Shown here piece after piece: positions 8,276 to 22,647 of a stretch of DNA of 47,560 nucleotides; the stretch's first letter is position 1; every line of letters starts with the position of its first letter. This DNA is from Prochlorococcus sp. AG-436-C14 (GTDB lineage: Bacteria > Cyanobacteriota > Cyanobacteriia > PCC-6307 > Cyanobiaceae), in assembly GCA_003209755.1 (NCBI GenBank), contig QCPD01000013.1:1-47560 (forward strand). Reading direction: 5' to 3'. Below the pieces are notes generated by a model. That model was given only the letters and a program-made list of their open reading frames with translations. It ran no database searches and was not told the DNA's origin. Both the position numbers and the translations under genes were made by a program.

Positions 8276-9223
8276 TTAAGCATCAAAGAACCAACCATAG
8301 CTATGCAAGCCAACCCCAAGAAGGTTAACTCCTATATAGCAAACAATAATAACGAAGAAGCCTGCTATAGCAAGCATTGCAGGCTTCTTTCCTTGCCATC
8401 CTCTTGTTAGCCTAGTGTGCAAATAAGCCGCATAAACCAACCAACAGATTAAAGCCCAGGTTTCTTTAGGGTCCCAACTCCACCAACTACCCCAAGCTTC
8501 ATTAGCCCAAACAGCACCGCTAATAAGACCAACTGTAAGCAACAAGAATCCAGCAGTTATTGATCTATAACTTAAAGAATCAAGTTGCTCAGCATTTGTA
8601 AATTCCACTGGTTGTATTGAATTTAAGTTCTCATTTCTTTCATCAATATATATTTCAGAACTTTGCCTAAATGAACCTGAGCCAAAGGAGCTATTACGGA
8701 TATTGAATTGCTTTTTTCCATCTACAAGAAAGACGCCAAAAGACAAAATTGAACCTATTAGTAATGCAGCGTAAGAACTCATAATTACACTCACATGCAT
8801 TACCAACCAACTAGAACGAAGTGCTGGAACTAAAGGAGCAGAAGATTGCAAATTCTCTGGTAAAACAAAGCTAGCAAAACCTATTGAAAGCAATGAGATA
8901 GGAGTCGCAACTGCAGAAACTATTGGCGACCTCCATGCCCTTTCTACAAAAAGCTGAGTCAAGGTACAACCCCAAGTCAAAAAACAAAGTGATTCATAGA
9001 GATTACTAATTGGAAAATGTCCTGATTGCCACCATCTCAGGATCAATTGAGTAGTAAGAAAAAGATTGGATATTGCGACTAAAAATCTAGCTATGGAAGA
9101 ATCACTGCTACCAGCAACTGACCAAAAAGAAATAGGCAATGCAATTAATAAGAAAAGAAAGGCTACAAACCCAAGAGAAACAACAAGGTCAAAGGAAAAA
9201 TTATTTAACTGAAAATCAAACAT
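8276..9223 (-). CDS. ccsA: Cytochrome c biogenesis protein CcsA (System II)
   Basis: Membrane component of the System II (Ccs) haem export and ligation machinery, which attaches haem to c-type cytochromes on the lumenal side; cytochrome f and c6 need it. The 315-residue protein has about eight hydrophobic segments and the haem-handling tryptophan-rich motif [15 protein letters not shown] near residues 240-260. Conserved His residues (VMHVSV, and HSYG close to the C-terminus) fit the external and internal haem ligands. The ATG gives [15 protein letters not shown]. It lies 36 bp downstream of the LptF/G-type permease on the same strand; this may be simple co-transcription. Confidence 0.95.
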
Positions 9224-9259: not shown

Positions 9260-10447
9260 TCATTTGCTTGCCTGTTTTAACAAAAAACCCCCTCCTAACA
9301 TAGACAAAAAAACAGGCGACCAAGCAGCAAAGAAAGGATTTATTATTCCTTTGACTCCTAGAGAGCTAAAACTAAAACTCAAAATATAATAGATAAGTAT
9401 CAAAATAATACTTAATCCAAAACTTTGACTTCTACCACCTCCTTTTTTTTGCATTACCCCAAAACTACAACCAATCAAAGCAAAAACTGAACAAGCGATT
9501 GGCAAAGTAAATTTTTCCTGAATTCTTACTTTCATTCTTCTTGCTTCTTTAATATTGCCGCTACTTTGATATAACTCCATAGCCGTATTCGCTTCGCCAA
9601 GATTCATATCATTTGCATCTTTTGGCAGTTGTGCAATATTTGTAAGTTCAGTACCTAATGGATATAAAAAGCTCAAGAATTTAGTTCTCGTATTACTGCC
9701 ATCAGGACTAAGTGTCAAAATATCTCCTTCAAAGAATTCCCAATTATTTTTGTCACTATTCCAAATTCCTTTTTTAGCCTTAAGCATTTGAGTAAAACCT
9801 AATCTTGAGAAATCAATAACTGTGACATCCAACATCTGTCCGTCAATAAATTTCCAGGCATAAAAAAGATGAGTAACTCCTCTTTTTTTATAACTTGAAT
9901 ATGGATCTATAATTTCTCCTTTCTTTGAAAAGATAATATCTTCTCCCTTTTCATTCGTAAAAGATTTACCTAAAGAATTAGCCAAGATGATTTCAGCATT
10001 TTTATTTGTGCTTGGAACAATATTATTATTAAAAATGAAGGTCATATACGTCATAAATATTGACAAGATTAATCCTGGTAAAATAAGTCTATAAATTGAT
10101 ATACCAATACTTTTTAATGCCTTAATTTCACTATTATCATTAAGACTTCCATAAGCCAACAAAGTTGAAAGTAACATTGCCATAGGGAAAGATATAACAA
10201 TAAAACTAGGTAGCTTTAGCAATAGAATCTGAATAGCTATAGAGAAAGGAAGTCCAATCTCAACTATTTTCCTTATAAGATCAAAAATAACTCCTACTGA
10301 AAGAGAAACGACGGTAAAAGCGGCTATTGAAAAAAATAAAGGTGGCAATAATTCAAAAAGTATCCATCTATCTAACAAAGGAATTATTTTCCAAACCCTT
10401 TCTACTAAATTATGAAATCTAGATAATAAGAATAAATTATTAGGCAT
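9260..10447 (-). CDS. LptF/LptG-family (YjgP/YjgQ) permease
   Basis: A 395-residue permease with about three N-terminal membrane segments (LLDRWILFELLPP..., IAIQILLLKLPSFIVI, MAMLLSTLLAYG), a periplasmic beta-rich domain (about 120-270) and three C-terminal segments. SFPMAMLLSTLLAYGSLNDNSEI is diagnostic of LptF/LptG. In proteobacteria LptF and LptG form a heterodimer with LptB2 that extracts LPS from the inner membrane. Only one permease gene sits here, so either it works as a homodimer or its partner is elsewhere. It starts 6 bp after the lptB-like stop, so the two form an operon. Confidence 0.9.
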   Translation of the reverse strand: MPNNLFLLSRFHNLVERVWKIIPLLDRWILFELLPPLFFSIAAFTVVSLSVGVIFDLIRKIVEIGLPFSIAIQILLLKLPSFIVISFPMAMLLSTLLAYGSLNDNSEIKALKSIGISIYRLILPGLILSIFMTYMTFIFNNNIVPSTNKNAEIILANSLGKSFTNEKGEDIIFSKKGEIIDPYSSYKKRGVTHLFYAWKFIDGQMLDVTVIDFSRLGFTQMLKAKKGIWNSDKNNWEFFEGDILTLSPDGSNTRTKFLSFLYPLGTELTNIAQLPKDANDMNLGEANTAMELYQSSGNIKEARRMKVRIQEKFTLPIACSVFALIGCSFGVMQKKGGGRSQSFGLSIILILIYYILSFSFSSLGVKGIINPFFAAWSPVFLSMLGGGFLLKQASK

Positions 10448-17464: not shown

Positions 17465-19627
17465 TTAATTAAGCTTGCTGAAATCGGCAAGCTTCAAAGA
17501 CTGATTCCTTAGGATTGTAAGTAAATTTAGTCTGTTATTTCTTAGATTAATATCATCCGTCATAACCATTACACTTCCTTCTCCATCAAAAAAGTTGGCT
17601 AGGGTTTCAGCGCTTGAGGCTAGACCATCAGCTAACAATTTATATTTAGCACGCTCACCACTTACAGCTAGAGGTTTTAATTTCTCCAAAACATTAAACA
17701 TTTCGTTTTCACAATCCTTCTCAAATAGTGATTTATCTACAAAAGCTGAAGGGTCTATCACATCTTTGGGAATAGAACTTTTAGCTGCCAACTTAGAGGC
17801 TCGAGTCACTACAGCTTGCAACAAATTAAGTGTATTATTTTTCCTCATTTCCATTAATAATGAAGTGCGAAAATAAACGTCAGTTGGATCATCTAATAAT
17901 TTTGATGTTGAATATGTATCTCCTGCAATTGCCTGAATAATATCAAAGTCGATATCTTTCTCTTCCAACAAACTAATTATTCTTTGACGAAAGAATTCCA
18001 TTATCTCGCTTGAAAGACTAGTGATTTCAAAAGGGAGAGTAGGGAAAATTTGCTGCCAAAAAATAAGTGAATCATTTTGTATTTCATTGATATTTAATTG
18101 CCAATCTTTATTCCATAAAATCAACAATATTCCATTAGCAGCCCTTCTCAAGGCATATGGATCAGATGAGCTAGAGGGCCTTTCGCCCTTAGCAAAGATA
18201 CTAAAAAGCAATTCAAAACGTTCAGCTAATGAAACCGCATTGCCCAGGTCGTTTGATGGAAGAAAGTCTGAAGTTCCTTTAGGTTTGTAATGTTCCAAAA
18301 CACCAAGGCATACATCTCTAGCTTCACCTTCATGAAGTAAGTATTTAGATCCAATAGTTCCTTGTAATTCGGGAAACTCGCCAACCATGTTGCTAACTAA
18401 ATCATGTTTAGAAAAATGTGCAACTTTCAAAGATTTCTCAATATCTTCTTGATCAAATTTAAGTTTTGTTGTAACTAATTTAGTAAGCCATTCAATCCGA
18501 TTAACACGCTCATATAAGGAACCTAATCCGTCAACAAAAGTTACATCTTTTAATTGATTAATACGAGAAGAGCTGCTGATTAATAAATCTGACTTTATAA
18601 AAAATGAAGCATCAGAAAACCTTGCCTTTAATACTTTTTCATTACCTAAAATAATATTTTCTTTTGCTGAAGATAATCCATTACTAATACACAAAAAACT
18701 AGGAAGTAAAATATTTCTTGAGTCGAGTGATAATGGATCAAACTCAACATTTACTTTGTATAAAGGTATGTACCTTTGATGAACCTTCATCACTGTGGAC
18801 AAAACCTCAGGGGGTAAATCGAGGAAAGATTCATCAAAACTTCCAGTCACAAGTAAAGGAGACTCAACTAAATCAGTCAGCTCATTTAAAAGGGGTTCAC
18901 TAAGATCAGGCTTAACTTTTTTATTTTTTTCATGATTAATAACTGAATTTTTAATATTTGAAAGACGACTATTCCTGTCAACTATTACTCCAACATCCTG
19001 CAATTGATCTAAATAAGTTTTTGCATTTTTTATTTCTAGTGTTGTCCCATGCAACCTATGTGGCCTTGAGATATTTCCAATTTGAATTTCCGGATCACAC
19101 CCTGAAATTCTAAAAGGTAAAACTTCTGAATCAATCAAAGAAACAATCCAACGGATAGGTCTCGAAAAGCGAAAATCACCTTTCCCCCATCTCATAAACC
19201 TTCTACCTTGAATTTTGCTGATCCATCCAGGTAAATAGTCAGCTAACAAACTCCCCACGGGCTTGCCTTTCTCGATTAATTTAGCGAAAACGAATGAACC
19301 CTTTGGCGTTTCACGAACCTCTAATTTTTCAGGAGAAATCTCATATCTTCTAGCAAAACCAATTGCTGCTTTTGTAGGTTCTCCATCATGAAAAGCTTGA
19401 GAAACAGGAGGACCTTTTCTTTCTAAAATATTATCTTCTGAAAAAGGCGAAATCCCTTCAATTCTTAATGCAATTCTTCTAGGAGTAGTAGTAACTCTTA
19501 TTTCACTAAATTTTATTTGAGAAGAATTCAAGTCATTATTTACATTTAACTCAAGCTGGGAAATAACGGATTCAGCCAAATCAGCTGGTAGTTCCTCAGT
19601 GCCGATTTCTAAAAGGTAAGTAGACAA
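17465..19627 (-). CDS. glyS: Glycyl-tRNA synthetase beta subunit
   Basis: Beta chain of the alpha2beta2 bacterial glycyl-tRNA synthetase; the alpha chain (glyQ) is not in this window. The 720-residue protein starts with YLLEIGTEELPADLAE and contains TPRRIALRIEGI, RFMRWGKGDFRFSRPIRWIVSL (shown by its parts) and KARFSDASFF, all family signatures. The C-terminal ~100 residues form the anticodon-binding-like DALR domain. The start is TTG (MSTYLLEIG), with no ATG nearby. Its last nine codons contain an 8-bp perfect inverted repeat. Confidence 0.96.
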   Translation of the reverse strand: MSTYLLEIGTEELPADLAESVISQLELNVNNDLNSSQIKFSEIRVTTTPRRIALRIEGISPFSEDNILERKGPPVSQAFHDGEPTKAAIGFARRYEISPEKLEVRETPKGSFVFAKLIEKGKPVGSLLADYLPGWISKIQGRRFMRWGKGDFRFSRPIRWIVSLIDSEVLPFRISGCDPEIQIGNISRPHRLHGTTLEIKNAKTYLDQLQDVGVIVDRNSRLSNIKNSVINHEKNKKVKPDLSEPLLNELTDLVESPLLVTGSFDESFLDLPPEVLSTVMKVHQRYIPLYKVNVEFDPLSLDSRNILLPSFLCISNGLSSAKENIILGNEKVLKARFSDASFFIKSDLLISSSSRINQLKDVTFVDGLGSLYERVNRIEWLTKLVTTKLKFDQEDIEKSLKVAHFSKHDLVSNMVGEFPELQGTIGSKYLLHEGEARDVCLGVLEHYKPKGTSDFLPSNDLGNAVSLAERFELLFSIFAKGERPSSSSDPYALRRAANGILLILWNKDWQLNINEIQNDSLIFWQQIFPTLPFEITSLSSEIMEFFRQRIISLLEEKDIDFDIIQAIAGDTYSTSKLLDDPTDVYFRTSLLMEMRKNNTLNLLQAVVTRASKLAAKSSIPKDVIDPSAFVDKSLFEKDCENEMFNVLEKLKPLAVSGERAKYKLLADGLASSAETLANFFDGEGSVMVMTDDINLRNNRLNLLTILRNQSLKLADFSKLN
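17471..17494 (-). terminator. Possible weak terminator hairpin inside the glyS 3' end
   Basis: AAGCTTGC (17471-17478) and GCAAGCTT (17487-17494) pair perfectly around an 8-nt loop. In the minus-strand transcript the hairpin is formed by the last codons of glyS and is followed by an AU-rich tail (AAUUAAUUAUUUA). There is no continuous U-run, so termination strength is doubtful. It sits in the 19-bp gap and overlap zone between the convergent chlP and glyS stops. Confidence 0.4.
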
Positions 19628-19753
19628 AAAAATTTCCTTATATTCACAACAAGATTAGATCTAAATTTGAATTAGTTCTACATTCTGTGTCCTAGAAAAA
19701 ATTTAATCTTCAATGAATGGGGTTTTGCTCACCCATAGCTTTATTTGAACAAT

Positions 19754-19785
19754 TTGACACTAACTAACACGAAAAATGATACAGT
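19754..19785 (+). promoter_or_regulatory. Putative promoter of the integrase-sir fusion gene
   Basis: A perfect consensus -35 hexamer TTGACA (19754-19759) lies upstream. A candidate extended -10, TG-A-TACAGT, has its hexamer at 19780-19785 with a long 20-bp spacer; a 17-bp spacer would instead give TGATAC. Transcription would start close to the tandem repeats at 19784-19806 and leave a very short leader before the TTG at 19808. Boxes were read by eye only. Confidence 0.4.
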
Positions 19786-19806
19786 GTAGGTACCGGTGTA
19801 GGTACC
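19784..19806 (+). repeat. Tandem direct repeat GTGTAGGTACC x2 next to the start codon
   Basis: GTGTAGGTACC occurs at 19784-19794 and again at 19796-19806, giving a period of 12 bp. The second copy ends one base before the TTG start of the fusion gene. Each copy contains the palindrome GGTACC. Position at the predicted transcription start and beside an integrase-like N-terminus suggests an operator or a remnant of an integrative element; neither is proven. Confidence 0.7.
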
Positions 19807-19807
19807 A

Positions 19808-21952
19808 TTGCCTAAGATCATACAAATTCCAGGAAGATCAGGCTTCTACCTAAGGGTTGCTGTGCCAAGAGGTAAATTAAGGGATGCTTTTGGAACATGC
19901 GATGTAGTAAAGAAAATAGGTAACACTAAAGAAGAAGCTGAGGAGAACATAAGCTCAGCAGAAATAGCTATTCAACAAAAATTCGATGAGAAGCTCAGAG
20001 AAGAAGAGGCCAAGCAGATCAACAAGTCCTTGCCTAAGGGAATAAAACTAGAGGCTATTAAAAATAGCAATTCAAAAGAATCTCCAAAAAATATAGAAAA
20101 AGATTTAAAAGATGCTGGATTCAGCAATGCAGCTATTGAAGCTCTGATGAATTTTGAGAAAAATGGAAGTACAAATATTGAAGAAATAGAAAAGACTGTT
20201 CCTTCACCTTGCATAGCTAATAATTCCCCTCGAGCTAAATTTGAACAATTTAAAGCCGATAGTAATTACTTAAAAGAACCTCTACAAAGTGAATTATTAA
20301 ATGACAGTGATCACTTTACAAACGACGCAGTACAGCTTTTAAAATTTCATGGTAGTTATCAGCAAGATGATAGGGAACATAGAAAGAGAGGTGGCACAGG
20401 TAAAGATTGGCAAATGATGCTGAGGCTAAGAAATCCAGCTGGTTTAGTACCAGCCCCCCTATTTGTAGCATTAGATGATCTCTCTGATCGGCTAGGCAAT
20501 AAAACTCTTAGGGCGACCACTCGTCAATGCTTTCAAATGCATGGAATAAAAAAAGGGAATATTAAAGAAGTAATCGGAACAATAGTAAAGGCAATGGGAT
20601 CGACCCTCGCTGCTTGTGGAGACGTCAACAGAAATGTAATGGCGCCAGCAGCTCCCTACGAAAAAGGATCTTATCCTGCTGCGAGAAAATTAGCTAACGA
20701 TATTGCCGATGTTTTATCGCCTCAAAAGGCAGAGAAAACATACATTGATCTATGGGTTGATGGCGAGATAAAATATGCTATCAAGCCAACTTCTGAAGTC
20801 AAAAAGAACAGAAAGCTTCAACGAAATCCTGGTATTTTTAGTGGTGACAAAAATGAACCTTTATATGGTGCAACATACTTACCAAGAAAATTCAAATGTG
20901 CGACTACAGTACCTGGAGACAATTCGGTGGATATTCTTACTCATGACATAGGTCTTGTTACGTTTACAAATAGTAAAGGAGCTATGGAAGGATGTAATGT
21001 CTATGTAGGAGGAGGTATGGGCAGAACACATAACTTGGATACGACATTTGCAAGGACTGCAGATCCCATTGGTTTTGTAGAAGGTAAATATATTTTAGAG
21101 CTTGTTCAAGCCATCCTAGCGCTGCAAAGAGATTATGGAGATAGAAAAACTCGAAGACACTCAAGACTTAAATATGTTTTACATGACATGGGTGTCGATT
21201 GGTTTAAGAAACAATTAACCACGAAATATTTTACAAAACACATTGGTACCTTAAGGAACGAAGGGGATACAATACTTGAAGATTATTTAGGCTGGCATCA
21301 ACAATCTGAGAAACTATGGTTTGTTGGGCTTCCACTATTATCAGGTAGACTTACCGGAGAGATAAAGAAAGAGCTGAGAAATATAGTTGAAAAATTCGCC
21401 TTGGATGTACGTTTAACTCCCAACCAAGACTTACTTTTATGTAATATTGGTAATTTTCAAAAAGCCAGTGTAAAGAATGCTCTTATTAATATTGGTTTTA
21501 GTAATCCAGAAAGTCCCGAGCCAATAGCTAGACATGCAATGGCTTGTCCAGCTCTACCATTATGTGGACTCGCAATGACAGAGGCAGAGAGATTTTTACC
21601 AGAGCTTTTGGAGCGAATAAACACTCAATTAAAAAAACTAGAGATTAATAAATCAATATTAGTAAGAGTTACAGGCTGTCCAAACGGATGTGCCCGCCCA
21701 TACATGGCAGAATTAGCGCTGGTTGGTAGCGGTCTAAATCAATATCAACTATGGCTTGGTGGTAGTACTAATTTACAAAGATTGGCGACTCCATATCTAC
21801 AAAAGATGCCTATTAATGAACTAGAGAAAACATTAGAGCCTTTATTCCTTAGCTGGAAAGATACTGGAACATCTTCTAGTCTTGGAGATCATGTGACTAA
21901 GCTTGGATCTGAAAGTGTAATGTCTTTACTTACCTCAAGTGCAGCTCCATAA
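19808..21952 (+). CDS. sir: Ferredoxin-sulfite reductase with an integrase-like N-terminal extension
   Basis: Reduces sulfite to sulfide with six electrons from ferredoxin in sulfate assimilation. The conserved enzyme starts at about residue 139 (SPRAKFEQFKADSNYL) and runs to the end. It has LLKFHGSYQQDDRE, TTRQCFQMHGIKKGN, ACGDVNRNVMAPAAP and the four ligands of the 4Fe-4S/sirohaem site, Cys580, Cys586, Cys624 and Cys628. About 576 residues of Sir is the normal size. Residues 1-65 (MPKIIQIPGRSGFYLRVAVP, then LRDAFG and KKIGNTKEEAEE) instead resemble the N-terminal arm of tyrosine recombinases; residues 66-138 are a charged linker of unknown origin. TTG at 19808 is the only likely upstream start because an in-frame TAG lies at 19799. 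An internal ATG at 20147 (Met114) is the one alternative. The 3' end overlaps the opposed vanX-like gene by 64 bp. Confidence 0.92.
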   Translation: MPKIIQIPGRSGFYLRVAVPRGKLRDAFGTCDVVKKIGNTKEEAEENISSAEIAIQQKFDEKLREEEAKQINKSLPKGIKLEAIKNSNSKESPKNIEKDLKDAGFSNAAIEALMNFEKNGSTNIEEIEKTVPSPCIANNSPRAKFEQFKADSNYLKEPLQSELLNDSDHFTNDAVQLLKFHGSYQQDDREHRKRGGTGKDWQMMLRLRNPAGLVPAPLFVALDDLSDRLGNKTLRATTRQCFQMHGIKKGNIKEVIGTIVKAMGSTLAACGDVNRNVMAPAAPYEKGSYPAARKLANDIADVLSPQKAEKTYIDLWVDGEIKYAIKPTSEVKKNRKLQRNPGIFSGDKNEPLYGATYLPRKFKCATTVPGDNSVDILTHDIGLVTFTNSKGAMEGCNVYVGGGMGRTHNLDTTFARTADPIGFVEGKYILELVQAILALQRDYGDRKTRRHSRLKYVLHDMGVDWFKKQLTTKYFTKHIGTLRNEGDTILEDYLGWHQQSEKLWFVGLPLLSGRLTGEIKKELRNIVEKFALDVRLTPNQDLLLCNIGNFQKASVKNALINIGFSNPESPEPIARHAMACPALPLCGLAMTEAERFLPELLERINTQLKKLEINKSILVRVTGCPNGCARPYMAELALVGSGLNQYQLWLGGSTNLQRLATPYLQKMPINELEKTLEPLFLSWKDTGTSSSLGDHVTKLGSESVMSLLTSSAAP

Positions 21953-22647
21953 ATAGCATTGCCTTTCTTAGTTAACCAAGACCATAACTGATCTCCATAG
22001 CTAAAATGCCACCACTCATTTGGGTGCTGAACAAAACCAGCCTGTTTCATAACTGAAAGCAAAAGAGATCTTCTATACTGAAAAACCTGATGTTTTGTAT
22101 AAGGCTTCTTATAAGAGTCTTTCTTATAAAAGTCAGGACTAGATTCAGGTCCAATAAAATCTATTTCTCCACCTAGATCTAATGGTTTACTAGTCATATC
22201 AGCAAGAGTCAAATCAATAGCAGCACCTGTACTGTGCGGAGGCGGCGTAAGAGGATCAGAAGATGGTTTTGCCCAGAAACGACCAACCTCCTCAATTACA
22301 TCATTGATGCATTCATTGACAGGAAGATCATTAATATCAATTCCCTTCGACTTACAAGTTTCTTGGATAGTGTAATTAAACATGAATTTTTGGACAGGTA
22401 TCGGTCTCCAAGCATCAAACAAAGCCAACTGCAATTGGGGGTTAATCTCGGAAAGGTGTTGTTGCGCAAGTATTAATCTTTTTAAAACACTTCTACGTAA
22501 AACCCATGGATCTGCTCCAGTTAAATATGGAGCACCTAACGACATATAAGGATGAGGTGTTAACCGAAATATTGATTTTGGAATAGAAATTAAAGGCTCA
22601 TTACATTCATTTATTTTGATATTATTCCAGGGTCTCAACTTTATCAT
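21889..22647 (-). CDS. D-alanyl-D-alanine dipeptidase, VanX/DdpX type
   Basis: A 252-residue zinc dipeptidase of family M15D. FDAWRP (77-82) holds the substrate Arg81. Zinc ligands are His138 and Asp145 in HSTGAAID and His214 in EWWHFSYG, with Glu211 as catalytic base. No signal peptide is visible, so it is probably cytoplasmic and would hydrolyse free D-Ala-D-Ala, as in peptidoglycan turnover; there is no vancomycin-resistance cluster here. The ATG gives MIKLRPWNN. Its last ~21 codons overlap the 3' end of sir on the other strand; the overlap lies beyond the conserved core of this protein. Confidence 0.9.
   Translation of the reverse strand: MIKLRPWNNIKINECNEPLISIPKSIFRLTPHPYMSLGAPYLTGADPWVLRRSVLKRLILAQQHLSEINPQLQLALFDAWRPIPVQKFMFNYTIQETCKSKGIDINDLPVNECINDVIEEVGRFWAKPSSDPLTPPPHSTGAAIDLTLADMTSKPLDLGGEIDFIGPESSPDFYKKDSYKKPYTKHQVFQYRRSLLLSVMKQAGFVQHPNEWWHFSYGDQLWSWLTKKGNAIYGAALEVSKDITLSDPSLVT

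Follow-up and report, generated by a model that had tools for sequence, protein, structure and literature searches.

A Prochlorococcus sulfite reductase with an integrase-derived N-terminal domain and a conserved arm-type-like repeat pair at its start: a possible case of autorepression

In trigger enzymes of the PutA type, an enzyme carries a DNA-binding domain through which it represses the gene that encodes it, and in PutA this domain is a ribbon-helix-helix. Plastid sulfite reductase has, to our knowledge, neither an integrase-derived domain nor a specific operator. According to the accessible part of PMC4154389, the chloroplast enzyme (SiR, DCP68) binds plastid DNA, compacts it and acts as a repressor of transcription. 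A further precedent is the integrase IntS of KplE1, which represses its own promoter about 5-fold and whose P'1 arm site overlaps the -10, single mutations in the other arm-type sites having left repression unrelieved (accessible part of PMC2951348). Here we analysed a stretch of 47,560 nucleotides from Prochlorococcus sp. AG-436-C14 (contig QCPD01000013.1, hereafter the window), in which the sulfite reductase gene sir encodes a protein beginning with an integrase-derived domain and lies directly behind a tandem pair of repeats resembling the arm-type sites of integrases.

Sir combines, as PutA does, an N-terminal domain of DNA-binding type with a redox enzyme and a putative operator at its own gene, the difference being that Sir owes the domain to an integrase and the putative operator to the attP arms of that integrase. 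With the chloroplast enzyme it shares, next to sulfite reduction, a second role related to DNA, putative in Sir; the chloroplast enzyme differs in compacting DNA (accessible part of PMC4154389). As described for KplE1 IntS in the accessible part of PMC2951348, the coding sequence of a DNA-binding protein is directly preceded by arm-type sites adjoining or overlapping the promoter and start of the gene; unlike IntS, Sir has no recombinase domains and carries its DNA-binding domain, whose binding is predicted, on a metabolic enzyme. Picocyanobacterial tyrosine recombinases with a DUF6538-like N-terminal domain (N-domain; loci L072-L077 and L106) share with Sir this domain, a TTG, GTG or ATG start and tandem repeats directly upstream, whereas Sir lacks their SAM-like core-binding and catalytic domains.

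The sir fusion gene and the integrase origin of its N-terminal extension

The sir gene occupies positions 19808..21952 of the forward strand and encodes 714 residues from a TTG codon (19808..19810), with an in-frame TAG three codons upstream (19799..19801). Residues 1-138 are free of stops, and no ATG, GTG or TTG codon was read between Met114 and the conserved Sir region. The first-pass annotation, which was made from the window letters alone, had described the same open reading frame, with its TTG start, upstream TAG and about 138 open codons, and had likewise noted the lack of an alternative start codon where Sir usually begins.

Judged by its domain matches, the protein from about residue 135 onward is an assimilatory (ferredoxin) sulfite reductase. 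The NCBIfam model PRK13504 matched from residue 135 with a score of 744.4 bits against a cut-off of 457, TIGR02042 (sir) reached 728.1, slightly below its cut-off of 731.5, and Pfam returned NIR_SIR with an E-value of 1.1e-39. The reductase proper (residues 139-714; 20222..21949) contains C580, C586, C624 and C628, invariant in 16/16 aligned fusions, which we take to be the four cysteines of the [4Fe-4S]/siroheme site. For the whole fusion, NCBIfam gave reductase-type matches only, and the Pfam scan listed NIR_SIR, NIR_SIR_ferr and a weak DUF4473, with no integrase domain (Phage_integrase). The DUF4473 matches, which occurred in 19/20 members (best E 0.0011; window E 0.025, residues 93-126), were treated as chance.

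The homology of the extension to integrases emerged from comparisons with the integrases themselves, for which E-values refer to one genome in whole-genome searches and to one pair in pairwise comparisons. Profile-profile alignment by hhalign of Sir residues 1-63 with the N-domains of 17 picocyanobacterial integrases returned a probability of 99.6 and an E-value of 5e-24, and blastp against one full integrase gave 49% over 59 residues (single-pair E 3e-13). A free recombinase of 422 residues in a same-genus genome (G002), with matches to Phage_integrase, SAM-like and, below the cut-off, DUF6538, aligned with the extension at 43% over 63 residues (single-pair E 6e-13), and a genome-wide search with the extension retrieved a 424-residue frame in a same-genus genome (E 7.4e-9). 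The recombinase similarity noticed by eye in the first-pass annotation was thus confirmed. The N-domain of Sir spans residues 1-66 (19808..20005), as delimited by the profile match and by codon selection. Alignments with two full integrases reached further, to residue 118 (29%, single-pair E 2e-11) and to residue 114 (33%), so that the conserved helical segment of residues 93-118 (20084..20161) is probably integrase-derived too. A variable linker (67-92; 20006..20083) separates the two parts, and a fast-evolving junction (119-138; 20162..20221) leads into the reductase. Ten columns were invariant in the alignment of Sir with integrases (A1); the nine that were checked are all kept in 30/30 same-genus loci, and eight of these nine coincide with columns invariant in the 17 integrases alone.

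Scans of residues 1-138 alone against Pfam and PHROGs returned nothing significant, so the integrase link of the extension is visible only through its relatives; the separate search of these residues proposed in the first-pass annotation was negative with domain libraries and positive with integrase proteins. DUF6538, whose Pfam gathering cut-off is 27 bits, was absent from the matches listed for these residues at E up to 10. It scored 13 bits (E 0.083) on the N-domain of the fusion from a second genus and 12.1-26.2 bits, always short of the cut-off, on seven of eight free integrases scanned, the eighth giving no match. No relatives occurred in the viral contigs scanned, four records of a phage collection matched without covering the N-domain, and the top match of the integrase N-domain profile among PDB sequences was a designed protein (E 0.0039). 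An AlphaFold2 model of residues 1-138 (mean predicted local distance difference test, pLDDT, 78; predicted TM-score 0.50) contained strands at 3-5, 13-18 and 32-38 and helices at 23-28, 41-74, 94-102 and 107-119, with pLDDT falling to 60-77 in ten-residue blocks from residue 71 onward. A small DNA-binding domain would fit this model; fold searches with the model gave no significant match.

Distribution, single origin and selection

The same-genus sample comprised 41 genomes, the source genome and 40 others. Sir residues 1-73 were recovered at 85-100% identity in 30 of them (the source genome and 29/40 others), that is, in every genome holding the Sir 5' end, and the extension frame was open in all 30. 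Six of these genomes are single-contig. The 11 without the extension, which are 54-88% complete, either had no Sir match at E 1e-50 (10 genomes) or held a C-terminal piece only (one). The named carriers (23 loci, one from the second genus) are Prochlorococcus single-cell genomes, such as AG-402, AG-311 and AG-409. The second genus is represented by a single genome, Prochlorococcus AG-404-P15.

Upstream of sir in the window lies a divergent gene on the reverse strand (17465..19627), presumably glyS, which the fusion adjoins in AG-404-P15 as well. Divergent glyS and unfused sir were neighbours in 28/28 loci examined from 25 other genera, and the alignment of these 28 unfused proteins with the window protein began only at residues 105-143 (in L178 the frame was followed only as far as a stop). 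Of 400 family genomes, at least 362 contained Sir, and the N-domain profile, run on a family draw of 400 genomes with matches listed to E 0.001, found the domain on Sir in two genera only (30 rows and 1 row). The extension is therefore neither common to all picocyanobacterial Sir proteins nor devoid of recombinase similarity, the two features that the first-pass annotation had named together as telling against its reading. Two long frames of 615 and 631 residues, considered as further fusions, were integrases by eye, and six profile matches of odd length or weak score, considered as the N-domain on other enzymes, were by eye integrases or integrase fragments; the remaining non-Sir rows were classed by reading or by frame length only.

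When the catalytic part of Sir from 8 fused and 27 unfused rows was placed in a maximum-likelihood tree, in which 14/32 inner branches were open and the bootstrap was not fully settled, one branch with support 100/98 split off the fused set. The tree thus gives the Sir fusion a single origin. Listings of the open-access literature showed no title describing a Prochlorococcus sulfite reductase-integrase fusion and no match for DUF6538.

The ratio of nonsynonymous to synonymous substitution rates (dN/dS) was calculated by the Nei-Gojobori method on 29 full-length same-genus genes. Residues 2-66 gave 0.063, the linker 0.168, the helical segment 0.083 and the junction 0.388, compared with 0.058-0.097 for residues 139-700 and 0.298 for the last 14 residues, demonstrating that the N-domain is under strong purifying selection. 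Together with the frame open in 30/30 loci, this value supports expression as a fusion protein, one of the two routes envisaged in the first-pass annotation. The other, a start at Met114, found no support: this residue is replaced in 4/30 same-genus loci and in the second genus, and selection acts on the residues ahead of it. The start codon is TTG in 28/30 loci and GTG in 2/30, a stop stands at the spacing of the window TAG in 23/30, and one or two extra T directly precede the start codon in 6/30, with the coding frame downstream intact.

Cys31 (19898-19900) was invariant in 20/20 aligned fusions. A cysteine occupies this position, by eye, in 1/17 aligned integrase N-domains, that of the truncated free integrase L084, and Cys31 is for this reason only a lead to a possible redox role. 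At its 3' end, sir has a 64-bp tail-to-tail overlap with an open reading frame on the reverse strand (21889-22647), D-Ala-D-Ala dipeptidase-like by eye.

Arm-type-like repeats at sir and in free integrase elements

Two tandem copies of GTGTAGGTACC precede the sir start on the forward strand, repeat 1 at 19784..19794 and repeat 2 at 19796..19806, the latter ending one base before the TTG. Both lie within a 30-bp block, GATACAGTGTAGGTACCGGTGTAGGTACCA (19778..19807, forward strand), whose mean identity over the 30 loci was 97-100% per ten-base bin, whereas the 70 bp preceding it reached 75-91%. The block contains TGTAGGTACC twice, at a distance of 12 bp; both copies were exact in 28/30 loci, and one copy differed by one substitution in the other two, repeat 1 and repeat 2 having one variant each. 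In the second genus both copies read TGTTGGTACC. In the source assembly, exact TGTAGGTACC occurs twice, both times at the sir start, and away from sir in 10 further genomes it was found 8 times versus 21 for the reversed control.

A candidate extended -10, TGATACAGT (19777..19785, forward strand), was exact in 28/30 loci; a strict sigma-70 scan found no promoter. Of the proposal in the first-pass annotation that sir had captured an integrase 5' sequence, the start codon and the 5' region are borne out, while capture of a promoter is plausible. That annotation did not include the tandem repeat. As the captured piece includes arm-type sites, its likely function shifts from a donor of a promoter to an autoregulatory DNA-binding module. 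A second conserved stretch in the glyS-sir gap (19658-19697, about -150 to -111; 94-98% mean identity) probably belongs to the glyS promoter.

Tandem 9-12 bp repeats closely before the start codon are common among picocyanobacterial integrases (loci L072-L126). Nineteen free integrases passed our filter, 16 of them non-redundant, those dropped including some with visible repeats (L074, L083, L086). A tandem repeat (at least 9/10 matches, spacings 12-13) was present near the start in 11/16 non-redundant integrases, compared with 3/144 control open reading frames and 0.7% of shuffles.

Three genomes carried the repeat of the respective element at its far end as well, where arrays were counted with one mismatch allowed (shuffle means 0.1-0.3 per locus). 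G002 has two copies of TGGTAGGACC before the integrase and three more about 7 kb away (reversed control 0), the far array being spaced 13/13/12, then +147, then +58 inverted. The corresponding spacings were 13/13/12, +168 and +58 inverted, plus one stray copy, for TGGTTGGGAC in G185, and 13/25, +135 and +58 inverted for ATGGTCCTGCA in G279. In all three, and likewise in a remnant in G099 that retains one repeat copy per end, the first far repeat lies 60-61 bp beyond a 6S RNA match. The integrase is full in G002 and G185 and reduced to N-terminal pieces in G279 and G099. Sequence from the 6S end was found again on the side of the integrase in G002 and G099 (by eye) and in G279 (as runs of exact 12-mers); in G185 the contig ends short of this comparison. 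The same geometry with differing repeat letters at both element ends marks the repeats, on layout grounds, as arm-type attP sites and the N-domain as the arm-binding part.

The elements or remnants that directly follow the 3' end of a match to 6S RNA (Rfam RF00013) are located at L159:12926-13419 with L062:2981-4274, at L163:4192-4708 and 9960-9982, at L164:6031-6516 and 8941-8964 (with one degenerate repeat copy) and at L165:5347-5601 and 8827-8836. Transfer RNA was rejected as the target of the free elements, since a scan of 10 loci for tRNA and tmRNA genes returned 0; Rfam found 6S RNA in four of these loci. One search of open-access literature listings gave no match for 6S RNA as an integrase attachment site in cyanobacteria. 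Other genomes added nothing to the arm-site case: G219 and G427 showed the integrase-side pair only within the sequence examined, G332 had three scattered one-mismatch candidates at the far end (5 in all, shuffle mean 1.5), and G177 yielded 2 + 2 copies when as many as 2 mismatches were allowed, against a shuffle mean of 1.7.

Across 15 sequences, repeat similarity and N-domain similarity covaried (Spearman 0.34, Mantel p 0.0012), a value to be read with shared ancestry, with repeat windows chosen by hand and with L076 (8/9 repeat bases at 34% domain identity) in mind. The sir repeats and the arm repeat of the integrase L077 have TGTAGGTAC in common, agreeing in 9/9 bases, and L077 is one of the two closest integrases by N-domain. 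This integrase lies in a short stretch (L158:7142-10779) with arm-like pairs of the TTGTAGGTACAG type at both ends (2 + 2, at most 2 mismatches; shuffle mean 1.7), adjoined by an exonuclease III-like gene (by eye); the attachment core of the element was not found in the L158 locus.

Proposed autorepression and competing explanations

We infer DNA binding by Sir, repression and the route by which the fusion formed as follows. An L077-type integrase element would once have been located between glyS and sir, and a deletion would have joined approximately the first 120 integrase codons to the sir start, with the integrase start codon and two P'-arm-type sites retained. Sir would then be translated as a fusion from the integrase TTG, and the retained N-domain would bind DNA as arm-type domains do, its target pair overlapping the start region of sir itself. 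Because of this overlap, Sir would most likely bind and repress there, and negative autoregulation may now serve the homeostasis of a sulfur-assimilation enzyme. The IntS precedent, the similar layout at sir and the nine integrase-invariant residues kept in 30/30 loci lead us to consider autorepression probable, though well short of certain. A putative operator at the own gene that matches the DNA-binding domain, as in trigger enzymes, is seen at sir at the level of sequence. An extension of autorepression, proposed tentatively, would make Sir a trigger enzyme of mobile-element origin, with the attP-arm pair as operator, the arm-binding domain as repressor and binding gated by the siroheme/[4Fe-4S] state of the enzyme.

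The alternative that survives best, though unlikely, is that sir took over the integrase start and 5' region for expression only, the N-domain being a tolerated leader with no DNA-binding role. The start codon and the 5' repeats are indeed of a kind common among free integrases, and a weak AGG Shine-Dalgarno inside repeat 2, seen by eye, might keep the block for translation alone. However, residues 2-66 are constrained like the catalytic parts and retain all the integrase-invariant residues that were checked, and repeat 1 is as conserved as repeat 2 despite being farther from the start codon.

We regard as improbable that the N-domain tethers Sir to the nucleoid, to DNA in general or to a protein partner, an idea suggested by its presumed DNA-binding ancestry and by the compaction of plastid DNA and repression of transcription by chloroplast SiR (accessible part of PMC4154389). 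Tethering leaves the conserved arm pair at the own start unexplained, and the motif has no other exact copy in the source assembly.

An RNA role seems comparably doubtful. A GGUACC/GGUACC hairpin might hide the ribosome-binding site as an attenuator or sensor; both GGTACC cores are retained in 30/30 loci, and the predicted hairpin has -10.7 kcal/mol in the window and -13.1 in the second genus. Yet folding was not clearly better than that of shuffles (z -0.51 and -1.57, respectively), the three free integrases folded have direct repeats without such a hairpin, and the conserved unit includes TGTA, which the stem leaves out in copy 1 and which falls into the loop in copy 2.

Immunity against related incoming elements, whose arm sites the Sir domain would occupy and whose integration or excision it would block, appears very improbable: the domain is of the arm-binding type and L077 shares the 9-bp arm core, but the conservation of the sites at sir itself would be left unexplained, and the source assembly has no further exact TGTAGGTACC and hence no element bearing such arms. 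An artefact, namely mis-assembly or a real translation start at Met114 or later, as the non-ATG start and the upstream TAG might suggest, is less credible still, since mis-assembly is refuted by the recurrence of the fusion in the second genus and in 30 same-genus genomes, of which six are single-contig, and Met114 is unconserved behind residues under purifying selection.

The results suggest that the DNA-binding switch domain of a selfish element was domesticated to control a housekeeping gene. Should Sir indeed act as a trigger enzyme, sulfite reduction would set its own supply. The putative circuit is small, and the genome apparently has a single exact site for it; the comparison also exposed the attP arm layout of a picocyanobacterial element family adjoining 6S RNA genes. 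Autorepression by Sir would be a clear case in which the protein domain and the DNA sites of a mobile element were jointly domesticated as the regulatory circuit of a core enzyme.
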